Assembly: GCA_028698395.1 (NCBI GenBank)
Contig: JAQVDG010000023.1
Coordinates: forward strand, 1 to 13,474
Reading direction: 5' to 3'
Origin: Weeksellaceae bacterium
GTDB lineage: Bacteria > Bacteroidota > Bacteroidia > Flavobacteriales > Weeksellaceae
DNA: 13,474 nucleotides
Shown piece by piece: positions 2 through 11,852 of the stretch; position 1 is the stretch's first letter, and every line of letters begins with the position of its first letter. The notes below the pieces were generated by a model. The model saw only the letters and a program-made list of their open reading frames with translations. It was not told the DNA's origin and ran no database searches. A program made the translations under genes and the position numbers.

Positions 2-460
2 AATTGTTACCTTTGTATCGACATCATTAAACATTATCAAAATGCTTATGAAGCAATTCATCAGACACAATTTCAGGCGAACAATGACAATGATAGCATT
101 GTTGACAACAGTTTCCTCATTAATTCTACTGAATCATTTGGAAATTGGTATCTGCCTTTCCAGCTAGCGTATATCCTAGCGTGGTTCAATTGGGCTAAAC
201 GTATTATTCCAACCATCTCATCTGCCCCCTTATTTTTTTATTCTTATATACTTTCATTACATTATTGTACTCTCCAACTGTCTCTTACACTTGGCGCTAA
301 CGGCTGGGGGTGTGGCAAGTGTGGGAGAGCGTGTTACGTTTTCGTCCCCCGACGAAAACGCCCGAGCGGGCGAAACCGCTCCGAAGCTCCAGTGTCAACC
401 CACATTGGCTACACCCCTTGTTACCAACTGGCCTTTAGTTATTTGTCTTATTCAGAATAG
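2..460 (+). CDS. Possible 3' end of an unknown gene, start outside window
   Basis: A plus-strand frame is open from base 2 to a TAG at 458-460, about 152 codons, with no plausible start inside the window. The first 90 or so residues have a protein-like composition, with a run rich in Trp, Phe and Tyr (for example GNWYLPFQLAYILAWFNWAK). From about base 290 the frame runs through the GC-rich F1 palindrome, where the translation becomes rich in Cys, Arg and Gly and looks like read-through of a repeat. If the gene is real, its original C-terminus has probably been replaced at the repeat boundary. It would be the only plus-strand gene here, converging on module A. I do not recognise the family. 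It may equally be a chance open frame or a decayed gene. Confidence 0.3.
   Translation, partial: NCYLCIDIIKHYQNAYEAIHQTQFQANNDNDSIVDNSFLINSTESFGNWYLPFQLAYILAWFNWAKRIIPTISSAPLFFYSYILSLHYCTLQLSLTLGANGWGCGKCGRACYVFVPRRKRPSGRNRSEAPVSTHIGYTPCYQLAFSYLSYSE
293..426. repeat. F1 long palindromic repeat, copy a
   Basis: This is an interrupted inverted repeat. The outer arms are GGCGCTAAC (293-301) and GTTACC (420-425). The inner 19-bp arms are 307-325 and 399-417, both centred on GGGGTGT/ACACCCC, with few mismatches. The 73-base interior holds two perfect small hairpins: 338-346 with 351-359 (GTTTTCGTC/GACGAAAAC) and 359-364 with 367-372 (CGCCCG/CGGGCG). Bases 286-314 match 11679-11707 (copy c) at 28 of 29 positions. 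The element sits between the possible plus-strand gene and module A. It is far richer in GC than the surrounding genes. Confidence 0.85.
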
Positions 461-576: not shown

Positions 577-2508
577 TTATAAGCATTCTATTGATTCAAA
601 AACGCTATATTTTTCACTCTTAATAAGTTTGTCAAACTTTGATTTAAGCTTAAATAACTCGTTATTTGAATCCAAAAGGTCTTCACGTTTTATCTTATAA
701 TGATTCAAAACGTTATCTATTTTTGAGTTATTTGTTAGTTCATTTATGTCATTAAAAATATTTCTTTCAATTATTTGTTTAGCAATTGTCAATTCATCCT
801 TGTTTAAAGAACTGAAACTTTTCCACCATTCTTGAGTATAGCCTTCCTTTTCAAAAAAGAACCTGAAAAGTAGATAAGTTTCAGGCATATAAAGAAGTTT
901 ATTAAACTCCTCCTCATCGTGGCCAAAAGCTTTGTAGAAGAAACTTTTGCCTTTACCTATTTTACCCTTAGTTGCATTTAAAATAACTTGAATTGCTCTT
1001 ATGAATTTTCTATTCCAATTTTTTCCCAAATAGTCTCTATTAAGGTGGTATTCACCAAAAATTGGATGATATTTCATTGGAAAGGAATAAATATCTAGTT
1101 TATGAGAATCACATAATTCTACATTCATTTTTAAACGTTGATATAATTCAATAGGCTCATCCTCGTAATTGTATAATAAGTAGTTAGAGAAATGTTTAAT
1201 GCCGAATTTTTTTGCTTTAAGAATAGCTTCCAAATAATCATCCTTATAATCCATACTATCAAAAGCTATTCTTAGCGGTTTTATTGGAATTTGGCTTAAC
1301 AACTTTGCCTTTTCATCTGTAAAAAGCCTTGCATCAACCCCTTGATTGAAATCAACATATCTTGATTTGGGCACTCTATTACGATGTTTTTCATACAGAG
1401 GAGAAATAATAGGGTAAACTTCATTTATCTTATCAATCGTTGCCGTTTCAGGTTTTAAAAGATAATTGTTAAGCAATAAGTTATAAATGTATTGTTTATT
1501 CTCCCCTTTAAGTTTATCTATAAGTTCATTGAAAATTGTTATAGTTTTTCTAATGTATGCATTGTTGTTAATACCTTGATTTAAGTTGTTGATGGAAATT
1601 TCAAGTTGATTAGGTTCAATATATTTTGTTTTTTTATCAAAACCGTTATTCATAATATCACTAACTATCTCAGCAAATTTAGGGGATGCTAAAACATTAT
1701 TGTCAAGTAATAGTAGATTCCTTTTTGCACCATACTTAATATCAACCCCTCTTATTTTGTCGGACAATGAAATGAATTTATTAAATTTTGGCTCTATTAC
1801 TGGGACTGCACAAAATTTGCACTTTCTTACACAACCCCTTGTAGTGTAACCATAATAAGCTTCGTTTTCAGGATATTTATACTCTATCTCATCAAGTATT
1901 GAATAATCAAGAGGAAGGTCGTCAATTATTATATTGTTGTCATCTAAAACGCCTGCTTTATTCAGCAAACCAGTATGAACATTCCTTAAATTTGTGTGAC
2001 TCTTTATTTCTTCTGGAATAACAGAAGCCATAACACCACCAACCCATAATTCATTTTCGTCCTTAACCAGCGATTTGCAAAATTCAATAGTATTAATTGT
2101 AATTTGCCAATTAAAAGTAAATAGTGTTGTAACGCACACTCTATCCCAGAAAGGTTCTTTCAAGTATTGCTTCTTCCAGTAATAGTCTTTATAAAAAATG
2201 ATAGCGTTTAGTAGCAAAACTTCATATTCAGATTCATTTGTATTTAAATCATCTAGAATAGATTTATTTCTTTTCTTAATATACTCTCTTATAATGAAAT
2301 AATTAGATTTCCAATTGAATTTGGAGTCAATTTTTCTTAATTTAGAAATACATAGATTTACTATGTGATTTATTATGAGGTCTTTCAAATCACCTTTAAA
2401 AAAAACAACATTATCACCTAACATCTTGTGATAGGTGGCTAATTTCATTAACCCAATAGGTGGATATTTATTTCTGTAATTAGGTTCAATTAGTAGTACA
2501 TTTCTCAT
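577..2508 (-). CDS. Large radical SAM protein, last gene of module A
   Basis: This 643-residue protein has the radical SAM signature CxxxCxxC at C226, C230 and C233 (GCVRKCKFCAVP), the site for the [4Fe-4S] cluster that cleaves S-adenosylmethionine. The N-terminus (MRNVLLIEPNYRNKYPPIGL) and the WVGG at 156-159 resemble the B12-binding-like Rossmann region before the radical SAM barrel in MiaB- and BchE-type enzymes. I see no clear cobalamin-ligand DxHxxG motif. After the core, about 250 residues show no domain I know. The substrate cannot be read from sequence; a nucleic acid or peptide is possible. The ATG overlaps the end of the GHKL gene by 4 bp (ATGA), which indicates translational coupling. 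A tRNA-modifying enzyme is an alternative, but the operon partners favour a role with DNA. Confidence 0.8.
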   Translation of the reverse strand: MRNVLLIEPNYRNKYPPIGLMKLATYHKMLGDNVVFFKGDLKDLIINHIVNLCISKLRKIDSKFNWKSNYFIIREYIKKRNKSILDDLNTNESEYEVLLLNAIIFYKDYYWKKQYLKEPFWDRVCVTTLFTFNWQITINTIEFCKSLVKDENELWVGGVMASVIPEEIKSHTNLRNVHTGLLNKAGVLDDNNIIIDDLPLDYSILDEIEYKYPENEAYYGYTTRGCVRKCKFCAVPVIEPKFNKFISLSDKIRGVDIKYGAKRNLLLLDNNVLASPKFAEIVSDIMNNGFDKKTKYIEPNQLEISINNLNQGINNNAYIRKTITIFNELIDKLKGENKQYIYNLLLNNYLLKPETATIDKINEVYPIISPLYEKHRNRVPKSRYVDFNQGVDARLFTDEKAKLLSQIPIKPLRIAFDSMDYKDDYLEAILKAKKFGIKHFSNYLLYNYEDEPIELYQRLKMNVELCDSHKLDIYSFPMKYHPIFGEYHLNRDYLGKNWNRKFIRAIQVILNATKGKIGKGKSFFYKAFGHDEEEFNKLLYMPETYLLFRFFFEKEGYTQEWWKSFSSLNKDELTIAKQIIERNIFNDINELTNNSKIDNVLNHYKIKREDLLDSNNELFKLKSKFDKLIKSEKYSVFESIECL

Positions 2509-4061
2509 TTTAATTCTTCCTCAATTTTCTTAATTACACTTTCTGCTGTACTATTATCAAGAGCGTCACGAATAATTGAATATATTTTACTTACGAGTTT
2601 TCTTTGCTCCTTTGTAAGACTACTAAGTTTGTCCGTACGGAAAGTTAGTTTTTCTTCATTGTCATCAGATATAGTTATGCCATTGACATCAGATGAGTTT
2701 TGAGGCTGAACAACTCTGTCCAATATTTTTTTTACAGGTTGTAAACCATTTGAAACAACTTCTTGCTCAATTTTTTCTATCCTTTTTTGAGCTCTTATTG
2801 CTTCTTCCTTTTTCTTTTCAAACTTGTCCTTATACTCTTGGTGTTCTTTTTTGTCCGTAAAACCCGATTCTTTTTTTTGCTTATATTCCTCTTCAAATGT
2901 TTTTAGTTCTTCAATTTTCTTTACAGAACTATTTATTTCTGAAGCGGTATAGCAAAGTTTGTAAATATTGGTATGGAAAAAAGTTTTAAGTTTGTTTTCA
3001 AATTCAAAAAAAATCTTGTTTTCTGTAAAGTAATCTCTTCTTGAGTTTGGAATAAGGTCAGGATGAACACCGTGAACTTCTCCAACAAAGTAAAAATGAA
3101 ATCTTCGGTCTCTTTGAAGTTTTAATAGTGTGTACTCATCGCCTATCTGAATATTTGACTTTCTTAAACGAAAACCTCTAGTGTAATTTACTTGGTTTAA
3201 AGATTGGTTTTTTTCTGAAACACTATGCCAACCCCAGTACAAAAGTTTTCCATCATTAGCATATTCTTTAAAAAAAACTACATCAATAATCTCATCTTCT
3301 TTCTTTTTATCGTTTTCATCACCCTTATAGATTAATGTTGAATAACCTTTGAAAAGTCGTTCAGTATTAAGGAAAATTTTATATTCATCTAGTGCAAATT
3401 TATTATCTTCAACATCTTTGTAAACAAGTGATTTATAGATAAATCTTGTTGGAAAGGGGAGAGGAGCAACCATTGATAAATACTTCTCTATTTCCTTTTT
3501 ATCCAACAAGTCATCATTTGTAACCTCTTGAAGAATAACTTTGAAATAATGTGCATCCTGTTTTTCTTCAAAAACTTCAAAAGATGTAACTTTTTTTATT
3601 ACTGATATAGCTTCTTCCTTATCCCTTCGATTATTTATGATATCCTTTAAGTTTTCTGCGTCCCAAGTTAATCTTGATTTAGTTTTTTCACCCGAAAAAG
3701 ATGTTTCAAAAATTAATTTCTCACAATATGCTAATCCACCTAATCTACCAATGCCTCTGAAACCTTTGTCAACCCCTCTTTGCTTAGTTGATTGAGCAAT
3801 GTTCTGTAAGATTGGTCTAACTTCGCTTTGCTTAATTCCTGTCGCATTATCTTCAATAGTTATTGTTCTATTTTCAGCATCAATAAAAATATGAATCTCG
3901 CCTTCACAAGGATTTAATAATCCTTCTTTTATTGCCTTATCTATTTGGTCAGCTGAATTTTGTATGTATTCTCTATATATGAAACGAGAATCGTCATACA
4001 TACCTAATGTTAAGGATTCAATAACATCTTTGCCAATTATTGGTGAAAAATCATTATCCAT
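2505..4061 (-). CDS. GHKL (HSP90/MutL-type) ATPase with C-terminal coiled coil
   Basis: This 518-residue protein has a clear N-terminal GHKL ATPase domain. The N box is E31-YIQN35-SAD38, with the catalytic-type Glu and Mg-binding Asn. The G1 box is D71-NATG75, and the G2 ATP-lid is GFRGIGRLGG at 100-109. The family dimerises through the ATPase domain on ATP binding, as in HSP90, MutL, gyrase B and MORC proteins. Residues around 150-370 are probably the transducer region. About 375-440 is strongly charged (Lys/Glu-rich) and predicted coiled coil, followed by a tail of about 75 residues. It overlaps the HerA gene by 8 bp and the radical SAM gene by 4 bp. MORC/MutL-like ATPases beside nucleases are known in bacterial conflict systems, so an ATP-gated clamp or sensor is plausible. 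That role is inference. Confidence 0.85.
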   Translation of the reverse strand: MDNDFSPIIGKDVIESLTLGMYDDSRFIYREYIQNSADQIDKAIKEGLLNPCEGEIHIFIDAENRTITIEDNATGIKQSEVRPILQNIAQSTKQRGVDKGFRGIGRLGGLAYCEKLIFETSFSGEKTKSRLTWDAENLKDIINNRRDKEEAISVIKKVTSFEVFEEKQDAHYFKVILQEVTNDDLLDKKEIEKYLSMVAPLPFPTRFIYKSLVYKDVEDNKFALDEYKIFLNTERLFKGYSTLIYKGDENDKKKEDEIIDVVFFKEYANDGKLLYWGWHSVSEKNQSLNQVNYTRGFRLRKSNIQIGDEYTLLKLQRDRRFHFYFVGEVHGVHPDLIPNSRRDYFTENKIFFEFENKLKTFFHTNIYKLCYTASEINSSVKKIEELKTFEEEYKQKKESGFTDKKEHQEYKDKFEKKKEEAIRAQKRIEKIEQEVVSNGLQPVKKILDRVVQPQNSSDVNGITISDDNEEKLTFRTDKLSSLTKEQRKLVSKIYSIIRDALDNSTAESVIKKIEEELK

Positions 4062-5712
4062 TTTTGAATTGCTTATAAATTGGTTTTGGGAACTTAATAT
4101 TTAATAACGACCTAAAAATGGGATTTTGTAATATATATTCACCCTGCTTAAGTCTTGTTAACATTGATTTATAAACTGGCGGCACATATTGATAATCTGG
4201 TTTTGAAATCTCTATTGCATTTGTTCGACCATAAGCGTGAGTTGAACAATTCCCTTTAACTCTATCGTGAATATCGCTTTTAAACTGCTCCGCTGCAAAA
4301 AGAATTATTCCTAAAGAACGTCCTCTTTCAGTAATATCTAGTAATTGGCGAAGTATTGGTGAACTTTTTGGAACTTCTTTTGATGCGTATTTGTTTAACT
4401 CATCAATGAATATTATAATTTTTGAAGGAATTTCTGATTCGCTACGGTCATTAGCTTGCCCTAATTTCAAATCATAAATTGACCTGATAACATCTCCAAA
4501 CACAAATCCTTGAGTTTCTTCATCTAATTTTGCAACATCAACTACATACAAGTCGTTTTTTTGAATATTAAGAATCGCTTCCTTAAGTCTTACTTCGCAG
4601 TCTTTTGTTTTACTGCTTAAAGAGTTTGAGAAGATTGTAGTTTTCTCAATTGTTTTTCTGAAGAGACGATAAAATTTTCTCCAACTTAAAACTGTTATTT
4701 CTTTATCTTTACCTGTACTACCAGATTTTGTGTGTTCATAAACTTCTTTAAGTAGTTCTGACCAATTTGTAATACCATTAAAACCTCCTTGCCCAGTTGC
4801 AATATAATTCACAATTGACTCCATAGTTTGATTAGGGTCATCAACATTGGAAAATAACAGGTCAATACTTTCTTTGTCATCTTCGAATATATATTTATAG
4901 AGGCAAGCCTTTCCAAGTTCCATCTGACTTTTAACATCTCTACCGTATGTTGATGTGAAGATATCTTTTGAATATGGGTAGAAGTATTTGGCATTCTGAA
5001 ATGGGGAAGTTGTTAATCCAAGCATTTTGTATATAGCCAAATCATCTTCTGTTAATTCTGTGTTTGGTTCATCAATTGCCAATAAATCTCTACCTTTTAC
5101 ATTAAACAAAACATAAGCAACAGATTCATCAGAATTGGCTTCTAGATACTTATCTTGAATTGCTTTAAGCAAAAACATTGCGTATGAGGTCTTTGAAGCA
5201 AGTCCTGAAATACCAGAAATATTCAAGTGAGCACCCTCAGGGCCAATTAAAAATTGTGAATTAAAATGAACAGGAATAGTAACACTATTTGGTTGCTCAT
5301 ACATTTCAATAAAACCGCACGTTAGGGGATTTTTAATATCTTTTAATCCTAATGCTTCTTTAATATCATCTTCATCAGCTAGGCTTACATATGACCCATC
5401 AAGAACTGGAGTATAAATGTTCTGGGAGTTTCCAACTACTTTTGCGTGTACATAATTCATCCCAATTCGCTGTGTATATTGCTGATAATTAACGTCTCCA
5501 AAATCACTAGAGATAAAACCAGCAAGAAAACTTGAGTTATCTGTCAAATGAGAAATTTCTTGTACTACTCCAAAAGTTATTGAGTTTTTAATGTGATTAA
5601 CTTTTACCACATCGAATGGTCTTATAATCAATTCTTTGTCAGTCCAGAAAAAAAAGTCGTCAACGGTAGTTGGTACTTTTTCTGTTGCAATAATTTTTCC
5701 AATTTGTTTCAT
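4054..5712 (-). CDS. HerA-like hexameric DNA-translocase ATPase
   Basis: This 552-residue protein belongs to the HerA/FtsK-type ATPases. Residues 1-110 match the HAS beta-barrel (RPFDVVKV, SITFGVVQEI). The P-loop region is 167-175, with K174-T175. Then come VLFNVKGRDLL (201-211), a Walker B at 432-438 (IIIFIDE, D437-E438), TERGRSLGI (461-469) and the sensor AAEQ (473-476). The arginine-rich C-terminal core includes YGRT (494-497). The P-loop is atypical: it reads GISGLASKT, lacking the usual Gly before Lys. HerA forms a hexamer that pumps DNA and activates the NurA nuclease. Here the gene starts directly after the NurA stop (TAAATG), which supports one complex. It overlaps the GHKL gene by 8 bp. 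Confidence 0.88.
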   Translation of the reverse strand: MKQIGKIIATEKVPTTVDDFFFWTDKELIIRPFDVVKVNHIKNSITFGVVQEISHLTDNSSFLAGFISSDFGDVNYQQYTQRIGMNYVHAKVVGNSQNIYTPVLDGSYVSLADEDDIKEALGLKDIKNPLTCGFIEMYEQPNSVTIPVHFNSQFLIGPEGAHLNISGISGLASKTSYAMFLLKAIQDKYLEANSDESVAYVLFNVKGRDLLAIDEPNTELTEDDLAIYKMLGLTTSPFQNAKYFYPYSKDIFTSTYGRDVKSQMELGKACLYKYIFEDDKESIDLLFSNVDDPNQTMESIVNYIATGQGGFNGITNWSELLKEVYEHTKSGSTGKDKEITVLSWRKFYRLFRKTIEKTTIFSNSLSSKTKDCEVRLKEAILNIQKNDLYVVDVAKLDEETQGFVFGDVIRSIYDLKLGQANDRSESEIPSKIIIFIDELNKYASKEVPKSSPILRQLLDITERGRSLGIILFAAEQFKSDIHDRVKGNCSTHAYGRTNAIEISKPDYQYVPPVYKSMLTRLKQGEYILQNPIFRSLLNIKFPKPIYKQFKNG

Positions 5713-6897
5713 TTAGAATAGATTTAGAAAGTGAATGTCACTCAAGTATTTGCTTTTCAGGAATTTCTCAGTAAGATATACAGGATATAAATGGTTTGCC
5801 CACCGCTTATCATTTCCATAACAAACAGGATTCCTTTCATTAATAATATTAGCTGTTATTACATCAATTAGGTCAGATTCTAATCCGTATTCATTTTCGT
5901 TGTCAGTAATTAGAATTTTTTCAATCTTAACTATTCCTGCAAATGGACTTTCAGTATATTTTGAATCTCTGATTCGCACATACCAAACGCTGTATTTGTA
6001 ATCACCAAGATATGACCACTTTTCCATATCGTGTTGAAACATATAAGCAGGGGTTCTATGGTATAATTTTAATTTAGCTAAAGCAGCTGCATTGCTTTTC
6101 CCGCTTTTATCCTTACTAAATTCTGGATTAAAGAGTTTTGAAACACCAATTACACACCTATAATTGTTTTTAATTTTTGATAGTTCTTTAAAGTCACCTG
6201 TTTTCATTGGCTTGTATTGCAATGAACCATCCTTTAGCAAGTAACTATCTTCATTCAATAAATTTTTATTAGTTAAATTAGAAACAATCTTTTTTTCACA
6301 CTCCACCATTTCATCTTGAATTGCTGCAATTCCTAAGTGTTCATATTTTAAGTCTGCTGAGTCTTGGTTTAATTTTGAAGAATAACTCAAAACATTTGAA
6401 AATTTCACACCTGCTTTTTTTACTCTTTCAACTGAATTAATCTTGTCTTTTATATTGTTAAAAAATAATTCAGTATTCTTAACTTCTGGATTAGCTTCTG
6501 TTGGCAATGATATAACAAGGTTATTTTCAAGTTCACAACAGCAAAATTTACTTGGGGATTTCCTTTCACAGCAAGCAACTCCGATTTGCCCTGCCATAAT
6601 CGGGAATATCCTTTTGTTTATTTCAATATCATCAACTTTATATGTTCTTCTTGAGCCATCTAAGAAGAACTTAAATAAAGGTTCTGTTTGTGATAATTGC
6701 TTTGCTTTTTTTGATAAATCTTTGGTTTGTTTTAATGAAGTATCAGTTTCTCCATATCTGTCTTTAAGTATTGTAAAGTTTTGACTTTCTTCGTATTTCA
6801 ATGTTGGAACCTTTAATTCATCATCAGCACAGTATTTATAAGAATCATAGCAAATTCCATTTGATACATCTTCTAATATTTCTCTTATTTTTCTCAT
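5713..6897 (-). CDS. NurA-like nuclease, first gene of module A
   Basis: This 394-residue protein shows the spread-out NurA pattern. FFLDGSRR has D80-G81-S82 for the first metal-binding Asp. LKDGSL at 221-226 gives a second Asp (D223). GVSKLF (251-256, K254), YHRTPAYMFQHD (279-290, R281) and a C-terminal HLYPVYLTEKF (369-379) match later NurA blocks. NurA is a Mn-dependent 5'-3' nuclease that works with HerA, the product of the next gene. It is unusual in having five Cys in a short stretch (C109, C110 and C119-C121), which could bind metal. An ATG at 6897 with AGGA only 3 nt upstream is the chosen start. The motifs are convincing but the family is divergent, so a search should confirm it. Confidence 0.72.
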   Translation of the reverse strand: MRKIREILEDVSNGICYDSYKYCADDELKVPTLKYEESQNFTILKDRYGETDTSLKQTKDLSKKAKQLSQTEPLFKFFLDGSRRTYKVDDIEINKRIFPIMAGQIGVACCERKSPSKFCCCELENNLVISLPTEANPEVKNTELFFNNIKDKINSVERVKKAGVKFSNVLSYSSKLNQDSADLKYEHLGIAAIQDEMVECEKKIVSNLTNKNLLNEDSYLLKDGSLQYKPMKTGDFKELSKIKNNYRCVIGVSKLFNPEFSKDKSGKSNAAALAKLKLYHRTPAYMFQHDMEKWSYLGDYKYSVWYVRIRDSKYTESPFAGIVKIEKILITDNENEYGLESDLIDVITANIINERNPVCYGNDKRWANHLYPVYLTEKFLKSKYLSDIHFLNLF

Positions 6898-7013: not shown

Positions 7014-7092
7014 TTACCTTTATTATTTTGGAATAAAACCTTTAATATTTACTTATTTAGTCAATGTCGTGAAAATCTGTCTTATAGGCTTG

Positions 7093-7225
7093 TTGGTAAC
7101 GGTTGGCGGTATGAAACGTTGGGGATTGCGGGCTACTATCCTGTCCAGCTACACCGAACTTAATGCGGGGCAGAACGCTTGCATAACCACTTAAACCCCA
7201 ATGTTTTATACCGCGTGTTACCGCC
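7093..7225. repeat. F1 long palindromic repeat, copy b
   Basis: Outer arms are GGTAAC (7095-7100) and GTTACC (7217-7222). Inner 19-bp arms are 7106-7124 and 7196-7214 (GCGGTATGAAACGTTGGGG against CCCCAATGTTTTATACCGC), with only two non-canonical G:T positions. The 71-base interior shares TATCCTRTCC and GCTAC with copy c. The stem sequence differs from copies a and c but stays paired. The copy lies midway between two F2 hairpins in the 479-bp gap between modules A and B. I see no gene in that gap; open frames there only read through the repeats. Confidence 0.87.
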
Positions 7226-7299
7226 TGGTGTTCTTTGTTTTCAGTCATTTTTCCTTTCAATTTGCTACATCGTTTCTGTCTGCCGTGCGTTGGGGTAGG

Positions 7300-7376: not shown

Positions 7377-8573
7377 CTATACTTTAACCTTCAATTGAAT
7401 TGCTTTTTCTTTTTTGTCTTCTGTCGCTGGTAATATTTTAAATTCCACTTCTAAACCAATAGCTATTTTTTTAATGATTTCTTCTGTCGTGTTTACTCGA
7501 AAGTAAACTGATTTATTGCCGTCAAATTTTATAAAACCATCTGCACCCTTTTCGTCATTATGTAAAATTCGGTCAATCTTTCCAGTTTGTCTTTGGGTTG
7601 TATTTTGTCTCGGTGCATTCTGTTGTGGATTAAAACTGCTCCAGTAATTTTTTAATTCTCTTTTTAACTCTGGCAATTTTTCAATTGTGATTTGCTCAAA
7701 AGAAAATTGAGCTAATGCCGAAGAAACTGAATTTGGAACATTCCATTCTTCTTTTAGTCTCAAGAGTTTTGATAATGAATAATGTTTAAAGGATAATTCC
7801 TTTTCATCTTTTAATGCCAACAATTCCGCTATTAAAACAAGTAGCCCAACTTTATATTCTAGGTCGCCAAAATTATTAATTGCACTTATGGCAAATTTAA
7901 AAGCCTTTTCATAATCGCCATTTTCCTTATAAATCTGAGCAACTTCGTTTTGAATAAACCATTCTTTTTTTCGCTTAAGAATCAAAAGCAATTCATTTAG
8001 TGCGTCAGCAGAATTGCCAAGATGTTTTTTTGATAATGCTATTCTTCTTGCAAACCAAACTTCATTTGAATAGTGGAACTTTTCAAATGATTCGAGAGCT
8101 TTCTTTGATAAATCAAAGCATTCTTGATAATGTTGTGTTTCAAAAAGTGCTTTAGTCTTAACTGCATACCAATCTTCTTTGCTTGATGCAAGTTCCATTG
8201 GTTTCTTTTCTCCTTTTCGTTCAACTTCAATGGTTCTACATTCTGTATCAAGTGAATCAACGGAAACCAAATCGCAAAATCTATTTACAACAGTCCAATT
8301 TACAGAAGGTTTGTCTTTGAATTTTTTAAGTAAATATGAAAAGTTCTTTGGGTCTAAAACTACATTATATTGCTCAATGAAAGTGAAAATTACATCGTAA
8401 TGATTTGTTTCAATTAATGCTGAAATCATTTCATAAACGATAAATTTGTTTAATCCAATTTGTTCGGGTGTAAACTCATTCTTGCCATCTTTGAAATACT
8501 TTAATGTCTCAGCAAATTTTTTCTCTTTGTTGAGTTTCGATATAGCTTGACTAAAGTCGAATAATGAAGCCAT
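7377..8573 (-). CDS. TPR-like protein with C-terminal cold-shock-like domain
   Basis: This 398-residue soluble protein has two parts. Residues 1-310 are helical and TPR-like, with helix pairs visible around 135-165 (WYAVKTKALFETQHYQECF), 170-200 and 204-235 (NEVAQIYKENGDYEKAFKFA). A polar Gln/Asn linker spans about 316-329. Residues 330-398 resemble a cold-shock/OB domain: TGKIDRI, then KGADGFIKF (342-350) in place of RNP1, and VYFRV (356-360) in place of RNP2. Such domains bind single-stranded RNA or DNA. No signal peptide or membrane segment is seen. It starts 3 bp after the stop of the NERD-helicase gene, so the two are surely co-transcribed and probably act together. Its exact role is unknown; an adaptor or nucleic-acid sensor for the helicase is a guess. 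Confidence 0.8.
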   Translation of the reverse strand: MASLFDFSQAISKLNKEKKFAETLKYFKDGKNEFTPEQIGLNKFIVYEMISALIETNHYDVIFTFIEQYNVVLDPKNFSYLLKKFKDKPSVNWTVVNRFCDLVSVDSLDTECRTIEVERKGEKKPMELASSKEDWYAVKTKALFETQHYQECFDLSKKALESFEKFHYSNEVWFARRIALSKKHLGNSADALNELLLILKRKKEWFIQNEVAQIYKENGDYEKAFKFAISAINNFGDLEYKVGLLVLIAELLALKDEKELSFKHYSLSKLLRLKEEWNVPNSVSSALAQFSFEQITIEKLPELKRELKNYWSSFNPQQNAPRQNTTQRQTGKIDRILHNDEKGADGFIKFDGNKSVYFRVNTTEEIIKKIAIGLEVEFKILPATEDKKEKAIQLKVKV

Positions 8574-8576
8574 AGT

Positions 8577-11540
8577 TTAAGCTTTGATTTGATTAATAGC
8601 ATTAATGAAAGAATTCCATATTGCTTGATTTGAATAATACTTTGCTGTGATTTTGCTAAAAGCACCGTCACCGTTATAATCAACTTCTAAATCTAATTCG
8701 TCATTTTCTGTGCTAAACAATTTGATTCTATCCTTAAAATTGGTTTGAATGATTTGGCTAAAAAATACATTGTCCTGTTTTAAAATATTTGATAGAATTT
8801 CGTATTGATTTTTTCGCCAAATGTCTTTAACAATGCCTAAATCAAATGAAAGGCTTTTGGATTTTAACTTTTCAATAATTTCATTACCAAAAGCCGTGTC
8901 TCCGCCTGATAATGATGGAAATCTAAATTTTCCTTGACCATTATAGCTAAAAGAAATAATAGTGGTTTTTGTATTATTTTTTAAATGGTAACGTTCTTGC
9001 CAGTTCAGATTTTCAACTCTTTCGATTTCCGTGTCAATTAGTTTACTTAAAACGAAATCTTTAAACTCAGTCAAACGGTTTTCGGTTTCTTGGCTTTCAG
9101 CAATGTAAAAAAACTCGTTTGTGGCATTTGCAGAATTGCTATCAACAAATTCAGTTTTATCAAAAGGGCTTATTGGTTTGTAATTGATTAAAGAAACTTT
9201 TTTTCTTGCTCTACTAATTCCAGTATAAAGCCATCTGAAATGATTTTCGTTTGTTGTTCCAGCTTTTTCAACATTGAAAATTACTTCTTGCCACTTATAA
9301 GACATTGACTTATGAACTGTCATTGCCCAACCAAACCGCAACAAAGCAGAATTTTTAAATTTATAATACTCTGTTGATGGGTCTTTCCTTAAAGTTGCTT
9401 CAATATTTGAACGATGTTTTTTGCTTGCGGATTTAAACAGTCTTTTCTGTTCTCTTATTTTTTCATCTAATTTAGTTTTAACCTTTTCTCCACTTTCAAG
9501 TTTTTGCTTTAAAACTTTAATTTCAGTTTCCAGCAAAACATATTTTTCTGATTTTAGAATTTCCAAATATTCGGTTGTATTTTCAAATGGATGCGACTTT
9601 AAATATTCAGCAATGTATGAGTTCAAGAGAATTTTGAACGCTATAATTTCATTTTTTGATAACTCAGCTTTTGCATTTATCCTATAGTTTTCTAGGCTTA
9701 AAACAATTGCTTTTTGTCCAGTTTCATTGAGAGTTAAAGAAATTTCTCTAAAAGTTAGAACTGTTGATTCTTGGTTCTTTTTGGTTTTTATTGTTTTTTC
9801 TATCGGTGTGTTATTGACTGCTGTTATTGTTGCAAACTGTCCATTGTAAACTTTTTTTGGTTCAGCAAAAGGGTCATTTATATCTTCAATAGATATGTTG
9901 TTATTGAATAGAACCAAATCATTTATGGCAATATCTTGTCCGTTTTTGATTATTGATTGTTTAATCCAATAATTTACTTTTTGTGATTCTTCGTTGCTGA
10001 AACATAGAATATGACACTCAGTTTTATCGTGGATAATATCAGAAACCGCCTTTGTAACATCTTCTTTTTGTAAAAAGCAAAAACTGTCGCCTGCAATAAA
10101 TTGAAGTGAATTGAAATATTTAGTGCGAATTTTATCAACGCAAAACAATGCTTCCTTATTGATAACAGAAAAGTCGGGTTTGTCTAATAGTTGATAAGCG
10201 TTGGTTTTTAACTTATACGCTTCTTCTAAATACAAAGGATTTAAAGGCGATTCATCAGTTTTTCCTAATTGAAGTTGAAAAGGGTCACCAATGAAAATTA
10301 TTTTTCTTTTGGTATTTGCTAAATTTGTGAAGCTCAAAAAATCTTTCAGCAAATAACCTGTACCAAAAATTAAATCAATGGATTGATTAAACGAATCTGA
10401 CACAAGTTGTGATTCATCAACGATGAATAAAGCGTTTTCAGCGTTATCACAGTTTTTTAAAGGAATTTCTTCAACTTGTAATTCTTCTGAATCATTGGTT
10501 TCGTCTATTTCTTCGGGGTTCTCTTGTTCTTTGGTTTGCTCGTCTTCTTGCTTATTGTTTTTTTGTCCACCATAAATGTATGAGTAAATGCTATTTACTC
10601 TGTCTAATCCGCCAATCGTAAGCAAGTTGTTTGCTACTCGACTTGATGAAGCAAAAATTTCAGTTTCCTGTATTCCCAAGTTGTAGGCAAGTTCCTGAAT
10701 AAAAGGAATTAGATATGATTTACCACTATTAGAAGTTCCTTGTAAAACGAAAATTTGTTGTTCTGGATTTTCTAAAAATGTTTTTATTTCAGTTAATGCT
10801 GAATGTTGGTCGGCATAAAGCTTTTTAAAATCAAGTGTAGCCGATTTATCGGCAAACACTTTTAATTTATCTTCAAGCGGTTTGTCGTCAAACTTAAACT
10901 TGTCAGCACGAAATACTTTTTTAAAAGCATCATAGGAATTTGGCGAAATGTTTACATCCTTGTCGGAAACATCAATAATATCCAATAAGCCTTCAAGGAA
11001 AGTTATTTTGTCGAGAATGAAAAAATTGAGTGCTTCATTTAATGGAATTCGTCCGTTCAATTCGGTTTCTTCTTGAAAACAAATTATTCTTACGGTATGG
11101 TTTGGATTAAATATATCGCCTGTTTTCAGGTCTTTTTGAATGTACTTGTTGTAAACTTCTGAAAATCGTCTTTTCTGATTTTTTAATTGAATGAACGGAT
11201 TTATGGAACTACCGCCTTTGATTTGGTCGCCAGTTGCATTTGTCCAAATACCCATTTCAAAATTTCTTTCGTTGGGGAGATTTATTTTGCCACTAAAATT
11301 TTTGAAGTCAATAATACAAACTACTTGGTCTGTAATAAGCAAAGCATCAATTTGAAGTCTTTCGTCAACTTCACAAAATGGGCTTCCAATTAGAAGTCCA
11401 GAACGTCCATTGTCTGCGAAAGATTTATGTAAGTGTCTTGCGAACTCGCGGAAAAAAGTATTTTCATAATTCTTTGAGTATGTATTTTTTCTAACTTCTA
11501 ACATATTCCAATCATTGATATTTTGTTTGTGTGTCGGCAA
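8577..11540 (-). CDS. NERD nuclease-domain and SF1 helicase fusion
   Basis: This protein of up to 987 residues joins a nuclease-like domain to a helicase. Residues 25-200 resemble a NERD/restriction-endonuclease fold: QIDALLITDQVVCIIDFKN (63-81) with D65 and D78-F-K80 as the D...(D/E)xK site. The helicase has Walker A GTSNSGKS (268-275), DESQ (375-378), GDPFQL (418-423), TVHKSMS (741-747) and YTGISRAR (772-779), the SF1 motifs I, II, III, V and VI. An acidic insert (331-358) and a charged coiled-coil-like region (660-710) interrupt the core. The last 200 residues are unassigned. The reading frame can open with TTG at 11540, but that lies 2 bp from the F2 hairpin. The ATG at 11504 (codon 13, MLEVRKN) is the likelier start. 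A nuclease-helicase effector is likely; defence is inferred. Confidence 0.87.
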   Translation of the reverse strand: MPTHKQNINDWNMLEVRKNTYSKNYENTFFREFARHLHKSFADNGRSGLLIGSPFCEVDERLQIDALLITDQVVCIIDFKNFSGKINLPNERNFEMGIWTNATGDQIKGGSSINPFIQLKNQKRRFSEVYNKYIQKDLKTGDIFNPNHTVRIICFQEETELNGRIPLNEALNFFILDKITFLEGLLDIIDVSDKDVNISPNSYDAFKKVFRADKFKFDDKPLEDKLKVFADKSATLDFKKLYADQHSALTEIKTFLENPEQQIFVLQGTSNSGKSYLIPFIQELAYNLGIQETEIFASSSRVANNLLTIGGLDRVNSIYSYIYGGQKNNKQEDEQTKEQENPEEIDETNDSEELQVEEIPLKNCDNAENALFIVDESQLVSDSFNQSIDLIFGTGYLLKDFLSFTNLANTKRKIIFIGDPFQLQLGKTDESPLNPLYLEEAYKLKTNAYQLLDKPDFSVINKEALFCVDKIRTKYFNSLQFIAGDSFCFLQKEDVTKAVSDIIHDKTECHILCFSNEESQKVNYWIKQSIIKNGQDIAINDLVLFNNNISIEDINDPFAEPKKVYNGQFATITAVNNTPIEKTIKTKKNQESTVLTFREISLTLNETGQKAIVLSLENYRINAKAELSKNEIIAFKILLNSYIAEYLKSHPFENTTEYLEILKSEKYVLLETEIKVLKQKLESGEKVKTKLDEKIREQKRLFKSASKKHRSNIEATLRKDPSTEYYKFKNSALLRFGWAMTVHKSMSYKWQEVIFNVEKAGTTNENHFRWLYTGISRARKKVSLINYKPISPFDKTEFVDSNSANATNEFFYIAESQETENRLTEFKDFVLSKLIDTEIERVENLNWQERYHLKNNTKTTIISFSYNGQGKFRFPSLSGGDTAFGNEIIEKLKSKSLSFDLGIVKDIWRKNQYEILSNILKQDNVFFSQIIQTNFKDRIKLFSTENDELDLEVDYNGDGAFSKITAKYYSNQAIWNSFINAINQIKA

Positions 11541-11605: not shown

Positions 11606-11685
11606 GTGCGTTGGCTGTTCATTTATTTCGTTTTTTTCTGTCTTTATGTAGCAAATTGTCTGCTGTGTCGTTTTTTTTTACACTT

Positions 11686-11818
11686 GGCGGTAACGGCTGG
11701 GGGTGTGTATAGTGCAGGGGATTGAAACGTTATCCTATCCCACGCTACGAAGCTACAAAAAGCGAGAAAGTTTCCTAATCCGTTGATAACCTGCATTATA
11801 TACACCCCTTGTTGGCGG
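11686..11818. repeat. F1 long palindromic repeat, copy c
   Basis: Outer arms are GGCGGTAAC (11686-11694) and GTTGGCGG (11811-11818). Inner 19-bp arms are 11700-11718 and 11790-11808 (GGGGTGTGTATAGTGCAGG against CCTGCATTATATACACCCC). The interior of 71 bases shares TATCCTRTCC and GCTAC with copy b and CGAAGCT with copy a. It separates module B from module C, and no F2 element follows it. Together with F2 copy d it fills most of the gene-free stretch 11541-11852. A T-run (11671-11679) precedes it. Confidence 0.87.
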
Positions 11819-11852
11819 TAGTTTTTTAATTCTACTAATAGTTGTTGTTCAA

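Follow-up and report, generated by a model that had tools for sequence, protein, structure and literature searches.

A candidate anti-virus system in which one radical SAM enzyme is common to exchangeable effector modules that mostly have an Hsp90-like ATPase of their own

What do four tightly packed genes do that lie on one strand in the order NurA nuclease, HerA translocase, GHKL ATPase and radical SAM enzyme? They occupy minus-strand positions 6897-577 of a 13,474-nucleotide stretch of Weeksellaceae bacterium contig JAQVDG010000023.1 (assembly GCA_028698395.1), referred to here, as a whole, as the window. An original prediction, made from the letters alone, had proposed the four as an undescribed defence operon. 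The coordinates of the open reading frames (ORFs) confirmed its spacing: NurA and HerA are separated by 0 bp, HerA and GHKL overlap by 8 bp, and GHKL and the radical SAM gene overlap by 4 bp. Our comparisons suggest that the operon is a candidate anti-virus system, in which one radical SAM enzyme would be common to several effector modules; these can be exchanged, and most of them include a separate Hsp90-like ATPase.

We scanned genome contigs with an alignment of the GHKL protein and kept the best 80 of 411 confirmed relatives. Counts out of 80 speak for the window's GHKL subfamily, with six pairs more than 90% identical in GHKL, and the numbers of matches in the GHKL and radical SAM protein searches are lower bounds. 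The results showed that 72/80 loci held all four genes in the order NurA-HerA-GHKL-radical SAM on one strand, indicating that the association is not due to chance. Among the 72 were loci with a split HerA frame, with inserted genes, or with a GHKL that was split or accompanied by another; none had a family member on the opposite strand. Six of the eight exceptional loci were cut by contig ends. NurA or HerA was missing in seven loci (L033, L073 and the contig-end loci L044, L063, L067, L071 and L084). The radical SAM gene was present in 78/80 loci, never more than once per locus, and the L016 copy, where the contig ends, is a fragment of 61 aa (95.7 bits). The contig of L064, which lacked it, stops 158 bp past GHKL; L033, which also lacked it, consists of HerA-GHKL and a truncated NsnB-like frame between unrelated frames (the downstream one ClpX-like by eye), and is a remnant or a wrong join.

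The titles and tree labels of these loci name Bacteroidota, Bacillota, Chlorobiota, Ignavibacteriota, Acidobacteriota, Planctomycetota, Synergistota, Spirochaetota, Deferribacterota and other phyla. The expected recurrence across genomes was thus borne out; in the loci searched, the genes were neither rarely together nor confined to one lineage at a fixed non-defence locus. A HerA tree of 71 rows, with near-copies and fragments left out, required at least 4 changes each for Bacteroidota and for Bacillota, a pattern that fits, but does not prove, horizontal transfer. Within a sample of 296 Bacteroidota genomes, which includes two known beforehand to hold loci (G001 and G006), the radical SAM enzyme occurred in 5/296 (one a fragment) and GHKL in 5/296. 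GHKL directly adjoined in all four genomes with a complete radical SAM gene, and genome G045 held a distant GHKL and no radical SAM match. Bins of metagenome-assembled genomes (MAGs) may hold foreign contigs: the GHKL proteins of L029 and L031 are 100% identical in MAGs labelled Ignavibacteriales and Syntrophaceae, one of which is probably contaminated. Another operon (L024, 3167-4714) lies in a MAG labelled Woesearchaeota (archaea), and its HerA clusters with one from Bacteroidales (100/99), which reflects either transfer or wrong binning.

Enrichment of defence genes around the operon was also found. At E ≤1e-20, 115 flank proteins matched 163 families of PADLOC-DB (version of 2023) and 69 control proteins matched 5, the counts being of families, related ones of which overlap, and not of proteins. 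The flank set took two ORFs of at least 150 aa on each side where present, 29/80 loci having at least 6 kb on both sides; it spans several phyla, whereas the control comprised 15 of 17 random stretches, all from Bacteroidota and near contig starts.

The arrangement proved to be modular. In 14/80 loci a second GHKL lay next to a candidate effector of its own, and the radical SAM gene was still single. The additional genes sit between GHKL and the radical SAM gene: in four loci (L013, L025, L034 and L037) NsnB- and NsnC-like genes precede the second GHKL, and in ten a GHKL of a different kind precedes a 330-aa protein. PADLOC identified the L013 insert as an NsnB-like ATPase (E 4.9e-65) and an NsnC-like protein (E 4.3e-11), with homologues in seven more loci; the PADLOC names come from L013 and, for NsnC, L081, the others being assigned by homology. 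The 330-aa protein of L022 (13184-14170), which has homologues in nine more loci and lies beside the second-type GHKL, had no Pfam, PADLOC or PDB sequence match and is a candidate new effector. One locus (L073) reads NsnB-NsnC-GHKL-radical SAM, with NsnB-NsnC in place of NurA-HerA; L084 resembles it and is cut by the contig end. A weak extra GHKL lay past the radical SAM gene in L083. Four alphaproteobacterial plasmid regions (L101-L104) all held DGQHR-radical SAM-GHKL (4/4), joined in L101, L102 and L104 by a PIN-like gene with its own second GHKL and in L102, L103 and L104 by a nearby helicase gene. The DGQHR protein had no PDB sequence match; its L101 copy matched DpdB (E 7e-11), and the L102 helicase is ZorD/DpdE-like.

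To compare how the two shared proteins follow these changes, we mapped labels onto trees of each. Effector labels on a GHKL tree of 59 hand-chosen rows (33/59 NurA-HerA-type, and without the second GHKLs of L020 and L023) needed 6 changes, with a minimum of 5 and a shuffled mean of 24.6. The 330-aa, DGQHR and PIN types formed single clades, and the NsnBC type formed one branch together with L067 and L081 (91/98). On a radical SAM tree of 45 hand-chosen rows, the labels needed 17 changes (minimum 5; shuffled mean 21.3), a count not strictly comparable with the first, as these labels denote the whole architecture and those of the GHKL tree the effector. The 6 rows for loci with NurA-HerA plus NsnBC needed 6 changes, a scatter equal to chance, and the loci of the 330-aa type came close to it (8 changes vs 9.2). 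Judged by these change counts, GHKL clades track the neighbouring effector and radical SAM clades track it much less, so that the radical SAM enzyme is the common part that gains and loses modules. The predicted four-gene unit therefore recurs, but it is one arrangement among several: the system is modular, and one radical SAM enzyme is common to a number of GHKL-effector modules.

Folds and profiles supported the identities of NurA, HerA and the radical SAM enzyme, and the motif residues that had been picked out in all four proteins were invariant in family alignments. For NurA, these were D80, K222-D223, H369, Y371 and P372 (the HxYP motif) in 48 sequences; we take the acidic residues to be catalytic. 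NurA had no real Pfam match, and its profile matched 7f6d weakly (E 0.35). Its AlphaFold model (pLDDT 84.8) was compared with PDB libraries, as was that of the radical SAM enzyme, and gave only three hits at E ≤0.001: the D. radiodurans HerA-NurA complex (7f6d_G, E 8.6e-11), T. maritima TM1739 (1zup, E 6.9e-9; the entry is named a putative RNase H-like nuclease, and we take it to be NurA) and S. solfataricus NurA (2ygk, E 9.4e-7). The TM-scores were modest (0.41-0.51 by query length), and the predicted fold is RNase H-like. HerA is an ATPase of the HerA/FtsK type with Walker motifs, its profile matched D. radiodurans HerA (Table 1), and K174, D437-E438 and R463-G-R-S-L-G468 were invariant in 34 sequences. 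Distant HerA proteins (22-31% identity) were seen at L002, L003, L004 and L006 on plasmids of Chloroflexota, Cyanobacteria and Streptomyces, adjoining SbcD/SMC- or exonuclease-type genes as a separate HerA unit.

The GHKL protein carries an Hsp90-type ATPase domain, with N35, D71, G75 and G100-G105 invariant in 39 sequences. It matched HATPase_c_3 (E 1.2e-10), two HtpG models (E 2.3e-9 and 9.5e-9) and an HtpG structure (E 1.5e-11), and the structure-database matches listed (60 of 139) were all Hsp90, HtpG or paralogues. Columns 18-351 of one GHKL alignment (A6) aligned with HtpG 21-343 (probability 94.9, E 4.5e-8); as to the C-terminal dimerisation domain, this local alignment ends at column 351. 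With a wider alignment (A8) the match ends at column 138, so any match to an Hsp90-type middle domain depends on the alignment. In the searches run, the protein was closest to Hsp90/HtpG, and we set aside the earlier comparison with MutL/MORC-like proteins, although MutL/MORC profiles were not compared directly. It could still act as an ATP-gated clamp or sensor, as had been proposed.

In the radical SAM enzyme, C226, C230 and C233 were invariant in 39 sequences, and PF04055 matched just above its cut-off of 29.5 (29.6 bits, E 9.4e-7). The model predicts a B12-binding-like domain followed by a radical SAM barrel, an architecture of the cobalamin type. The profile found no related match among PDB sequences. 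By Foldseek, the fold resembles cobalamin-type and MiaB/RimO-type enzymes; the first hit was MgmA, the methyl-coenzyme M reductase glutamine methylase (9ccb, E 1.6e-8), and the best match named in the cobalamin-type comparison was AprD4, which we take to use no cobalamin. The enzyme falls in the phage family phrog_9298 (E 6.1e-37), with which it shares a VDFNQGxDAR-type motif. In methylthiotransferases of the MiaB/RimO type, a second cluster is held by three more cysteines, conserved in the N-terminal part. The only invariant cysteines here were C226, C230 and C233 (39 and 14 sequences), and assignment to that type was rejected.

The likeness in fold to MiaB/RimO, like the distant plasmid HerA proteins beside SbcC/SbcD-type genes, would suit a housekeeping operon for DNA repair or tRNA modification, in which NurA-HerA processes DNA ends and phages play no part. 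We consider this very improbable: the auxiliary cysteines of methylthiotransferases are lacking, the radical SAM enzyme is rare in the Bacteroidota sample yet spread over phyla, matches to defence-gene models surround the operon, NsnB-NsnC replaces the effectors in L073, and DpdB-like and helicase genes accompany the family elsewhere. The searches made also matched it to no described repair or tRNA-modification operon.

A scan of viral contigs anchored on the radical SAM enzyme gave at least 458 confirmed relatives, of which 79 loci were kept. In the 18 loci scoring above 380 bits, GHKL adjoined in 13, and NurA-HerA was present too in 3 of these. The viral contig L001 likewise holds all four genes of the window operon, with LmuB (E 1.1e-232) and PDC-S06 (E 3.2e-195) as neighbours. 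The other 61 radical SAM proteins were weaker matches, mostly compact (mostly ~280-470 aa); within flanks of at most 8 kb, many cut by contig ends, NurA or HerA was found in 0/61 and a weak GHKL hit in 1/61. Terminase genes adjoined the compact forms (GpA 4, Terminase_3 3, among 141 scanned direct neighbours, which are 141/196 of those listed and mostly from L141-L189), and terminase was not among the families listed (25 of 47) for the control, all 135 listed genes further away in L142-L201. At two other viral loci (L139, 6309-10609; L140, 6339-10585), a gene of the radical SAM family lies directly past type IV CRISPR Cas7- and Cas5-like genes (E 5e-79 and 2.3e-38 in L139; assigned by eye in L140), and a second, different radical SAM gene comes next.

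By comparison, then, the loci show no more than one radical SAM gene per locus among the 80, GHKL clades matched to the neighbouring effector, exchangeable effectors, scattered lineages and a defence-island setting, and with exceptions they show a one-to-many relation of the radical SAM enzyme to GHKL-effector modules. Several observations weigh against this view or what we build on it. Architecture labels on the radical SAM tree were still more clustered than chance, with 0/200 shuffles as low. L067 and L081 hold Nsn genes with one GHKL for two effector sets, and L009 and L052 hold an inserted gene without its own GHKL. In Marinitoga camini virus 1 (L105, 5998-9824), a compact radical SAM gene and an adjoining HerA-NurA pair converge, and the 13 kb examined gave no match to GHKL, so GHKL may not be obligatory; these five are exceptions to the relation. 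DNA methylase families had at least 8 matches in the 141 neighbours of compact viral radical SAM genes and at least 3 in the 135 genes further away, which is no clear enrichment and proves nothing. Finally, a single enzyme that matures all GHKLs would give the same one-to-many pattern. The inserted protein of L009 (11560-12993) and L052 (478-489 aa, between GHKL and the radical SAM gene) reads as membrane-bound, and the L009 copy had no Pfam or PADLOC match.

We propose, with a confidence just short of even, that the four genes form a modular, restriction-modification-like defence system whose self-mark is written by the radical SAM enzyme, probably on DNA. The enzyme would chemically mark the host's DNA, or else nucleotides that are built into it. 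The Hsp90-like ATPase would act as an adaptor driven by ATP: on marked DNA it would hold the effector of its module in check, and on DNA without the mark it would load that effector or set it free. HerA would then pump unmarked DNA into NurA, which would degrade it. Any further GHKL-effector modules would respond to this one mark, and this would account for a single radical SAM enzyme being enough. The B12-binding-like fold and the stand-alone viral members favour a mark on nucleic acid; we infer its placement on DNA, its reading by GHKL and the destruction of unmarked DNA by NurA-HerA. Only tentatively, and with more doubt than belief, do we add the fuller version, in which a single writer places a so far unknown mark on host DNA, the Hsp90-like ATPases are effector-specific readers, and phages answer with compact copies of the writer that stand alone.

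The radical SAM enzyme could instead modify the GHKLs or effectors themselves, for example by carbon methylation like MgmA, and so activate or restrain every module. The protein methylase MgmA is its first Foldseek hit, the radical SAM gene lies adjacent to or one or two genes from a GHKL in the kept loci (with the 4-bp overlap in the window), and one enzyme for several homologous GHKLs fits the one-to-many pattern. We regard such licensing as unlikely, though worth serious attention, and prefer a DNA writer because the radical SAM enzyme stands alone in viral contigs (60/61 compact homologues without a GHKL hit) and because its DpdB/DndB-type partner in the alphaproteobacterial loci points to DNA; the Marinitoga virus enzyme, with NurA-HerA and no GHKL in the stretch examined, likewise argues against licensing. 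By analogy with viperin, the enzyme might also produce an altered nucleotide, either to block the replication of phages or as a signal to the GHKLs, an explanation that we hold to be improbable.

Next to the operon in the window, the TPR-OB-fold gene and the NERD/helicase/TBP-TOTE gene make up a second candidate defence gene pair (7377-11540; Table 1). Three imperfect palindromes in one orientation bound the operon and this pair, and they look like cassette boundaries. The core site of attC is GTTRRRY; the corresponding minus-strand sites were GTTAGCG, GTTACCA and GTTACCG, and identification as a named integron attC was rejected even though the palindromes are present. Their motif TAACGG[CT]TGG.GGT.TG was found in 0 of the other 218 loci, and one exact form was not found in viral contigs. 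In the window, Rfam gave nothing at gathering thresholds and ARAGORN found no tRNA.

Table 1. Positions of the operon genes and neighbouring features in the window
Feature	Coordinates	Strand	Basis
NurA nuclease, 394 aa, first gene of the operon	5713..6897	-	fold match to NurA structures; conserved D80, D223, H369
HerA-type DNA translocase, 552 aa	4054..5712	-	HerA 7f6d_B, E 7.3e-49; invariant Walker residues
Hsp90-like GHKL ATPase, 518 aa	2505..4061	-	HATPase_c_3, HtpG models and structure, HtpG profile alignment
Radical SAM enzyme with B12-binding-like N-terminal domain, 643 aa	577..2508	-	PF04055; phrog_9298; model pLDDT 91.8
TPR-OB-fold protein, 398 aa, neighbour outside the core	7377..8573	-	PADLOC TPR, E 3.4e-47
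NERD nuclease/superfamily-1 helicase/TBP-TOTE protein, 987 aa, neighbour	8577..11540	-	PDC-M16A, E 2.3e-83; TBP-TOTE, E 1.5e-16
attC-like imperfect palindrome, possible cassette boundary	285..428	+	fold z -3.83
attC-like imperfect palindrome, between the operon and the neighbouring gene pair	7084..7233	+	fold z -2.28
attC-like imperfect palindrome, beyond the neighbouring gene pair	11678..11824	+	fold z -4.59

Several known systems share parts with this one. The HerA-NurA complexes (D. radiodurans 7f6d; S. solfataricus NurA 2ygk) have the same nuclease and translocase folds, but the window NurA is remote from that of 7f6d in sequence, and we know of no radical SAM or Hsp90-like partner of these complexes. 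The phage proteins of phrog_9298 belong to the family of the window enzyme but are compact and alone, and PHROGs annotates them as 'radical SAM domain protein' without a function. The HerA-DUF4297 complex likewise pairs HerA with a nuclease, there in phage defence, but its nuclease is DUF4297 rather than NurA, it has two components only, and the word 'radical' does not occur in its text (PMC11291478). That complex is toxic to cells when active and so needs restraint, which gives a precedent for holding NurA-HerA back (PMC11291478). HerA/FtsK 'capture' and BREX-related capture systems, in which the translocase is proposed to bring invader DNA to a nuclease, are described in a text that does not contain 'radical SAM', 'GHKL', 'Hsp90' or 'NurA' (PMC12839542).

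DpdB and DndB belong to DNA-modification operons, and the Dnd, Ssp and Dpd systems have separable modification and restriction parts, as is proposed for the window system (PMC11888242 and PMC10853773, in the parts accessible). The likeness to Dpd lies in the DpdB-type protein and DpdE/ZorD-like helicase of the alphaproteobacterial branch of the family. In contrast to Dnd, Ssp and Dpd, the known modification genes are replaced by the radical SAM enzyme and Hsp90-like ATPases, although no search was aimed at DndC or DpdA. Menshen (NsnA, NsnB, NsnC) shares NsnB- and NsnC-like genes with L013 and the seven more loci, and has a DUF262 component according to the accessible part of its source (PMC10952713). 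Membership of the window in Menshen was rejected, with no NsnB or NsnC match among the six window proteins scanned. NurA, GHKL and the radical SAM enzyme matched no PADLOC model and HerA gave only a weak mad8 match. Searches of an open-access library gave no paper on NurA, HerA and a radical SAM enzyme together in defence, or on a radical SAM enzyme with GHKL in phage defence, in agreement with the original view that the combination is not a named system. The parts are known; as far as we have seen, there is no description of their combination, of a radical SAM enzyme shared in this way or of Hsp90-like ATPases that are specific to effectors.

If the proposed reading is true, radical chemistry and Hsp90-type ATPases would join the toolkit of bacterial immunity, and on its fuller version the system would be the first known defence class built on a radical SAM 'writer', with NurA-HerA, NsnB-NsnC and PIN effectors plugging into one mark in a one-writer, many-effector design. 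It would also predict a DNA modification that is apparently unreported so far, and would offer a possible function for phrog_9298, a common and uncharacterised family of phage radical SAM proteins.

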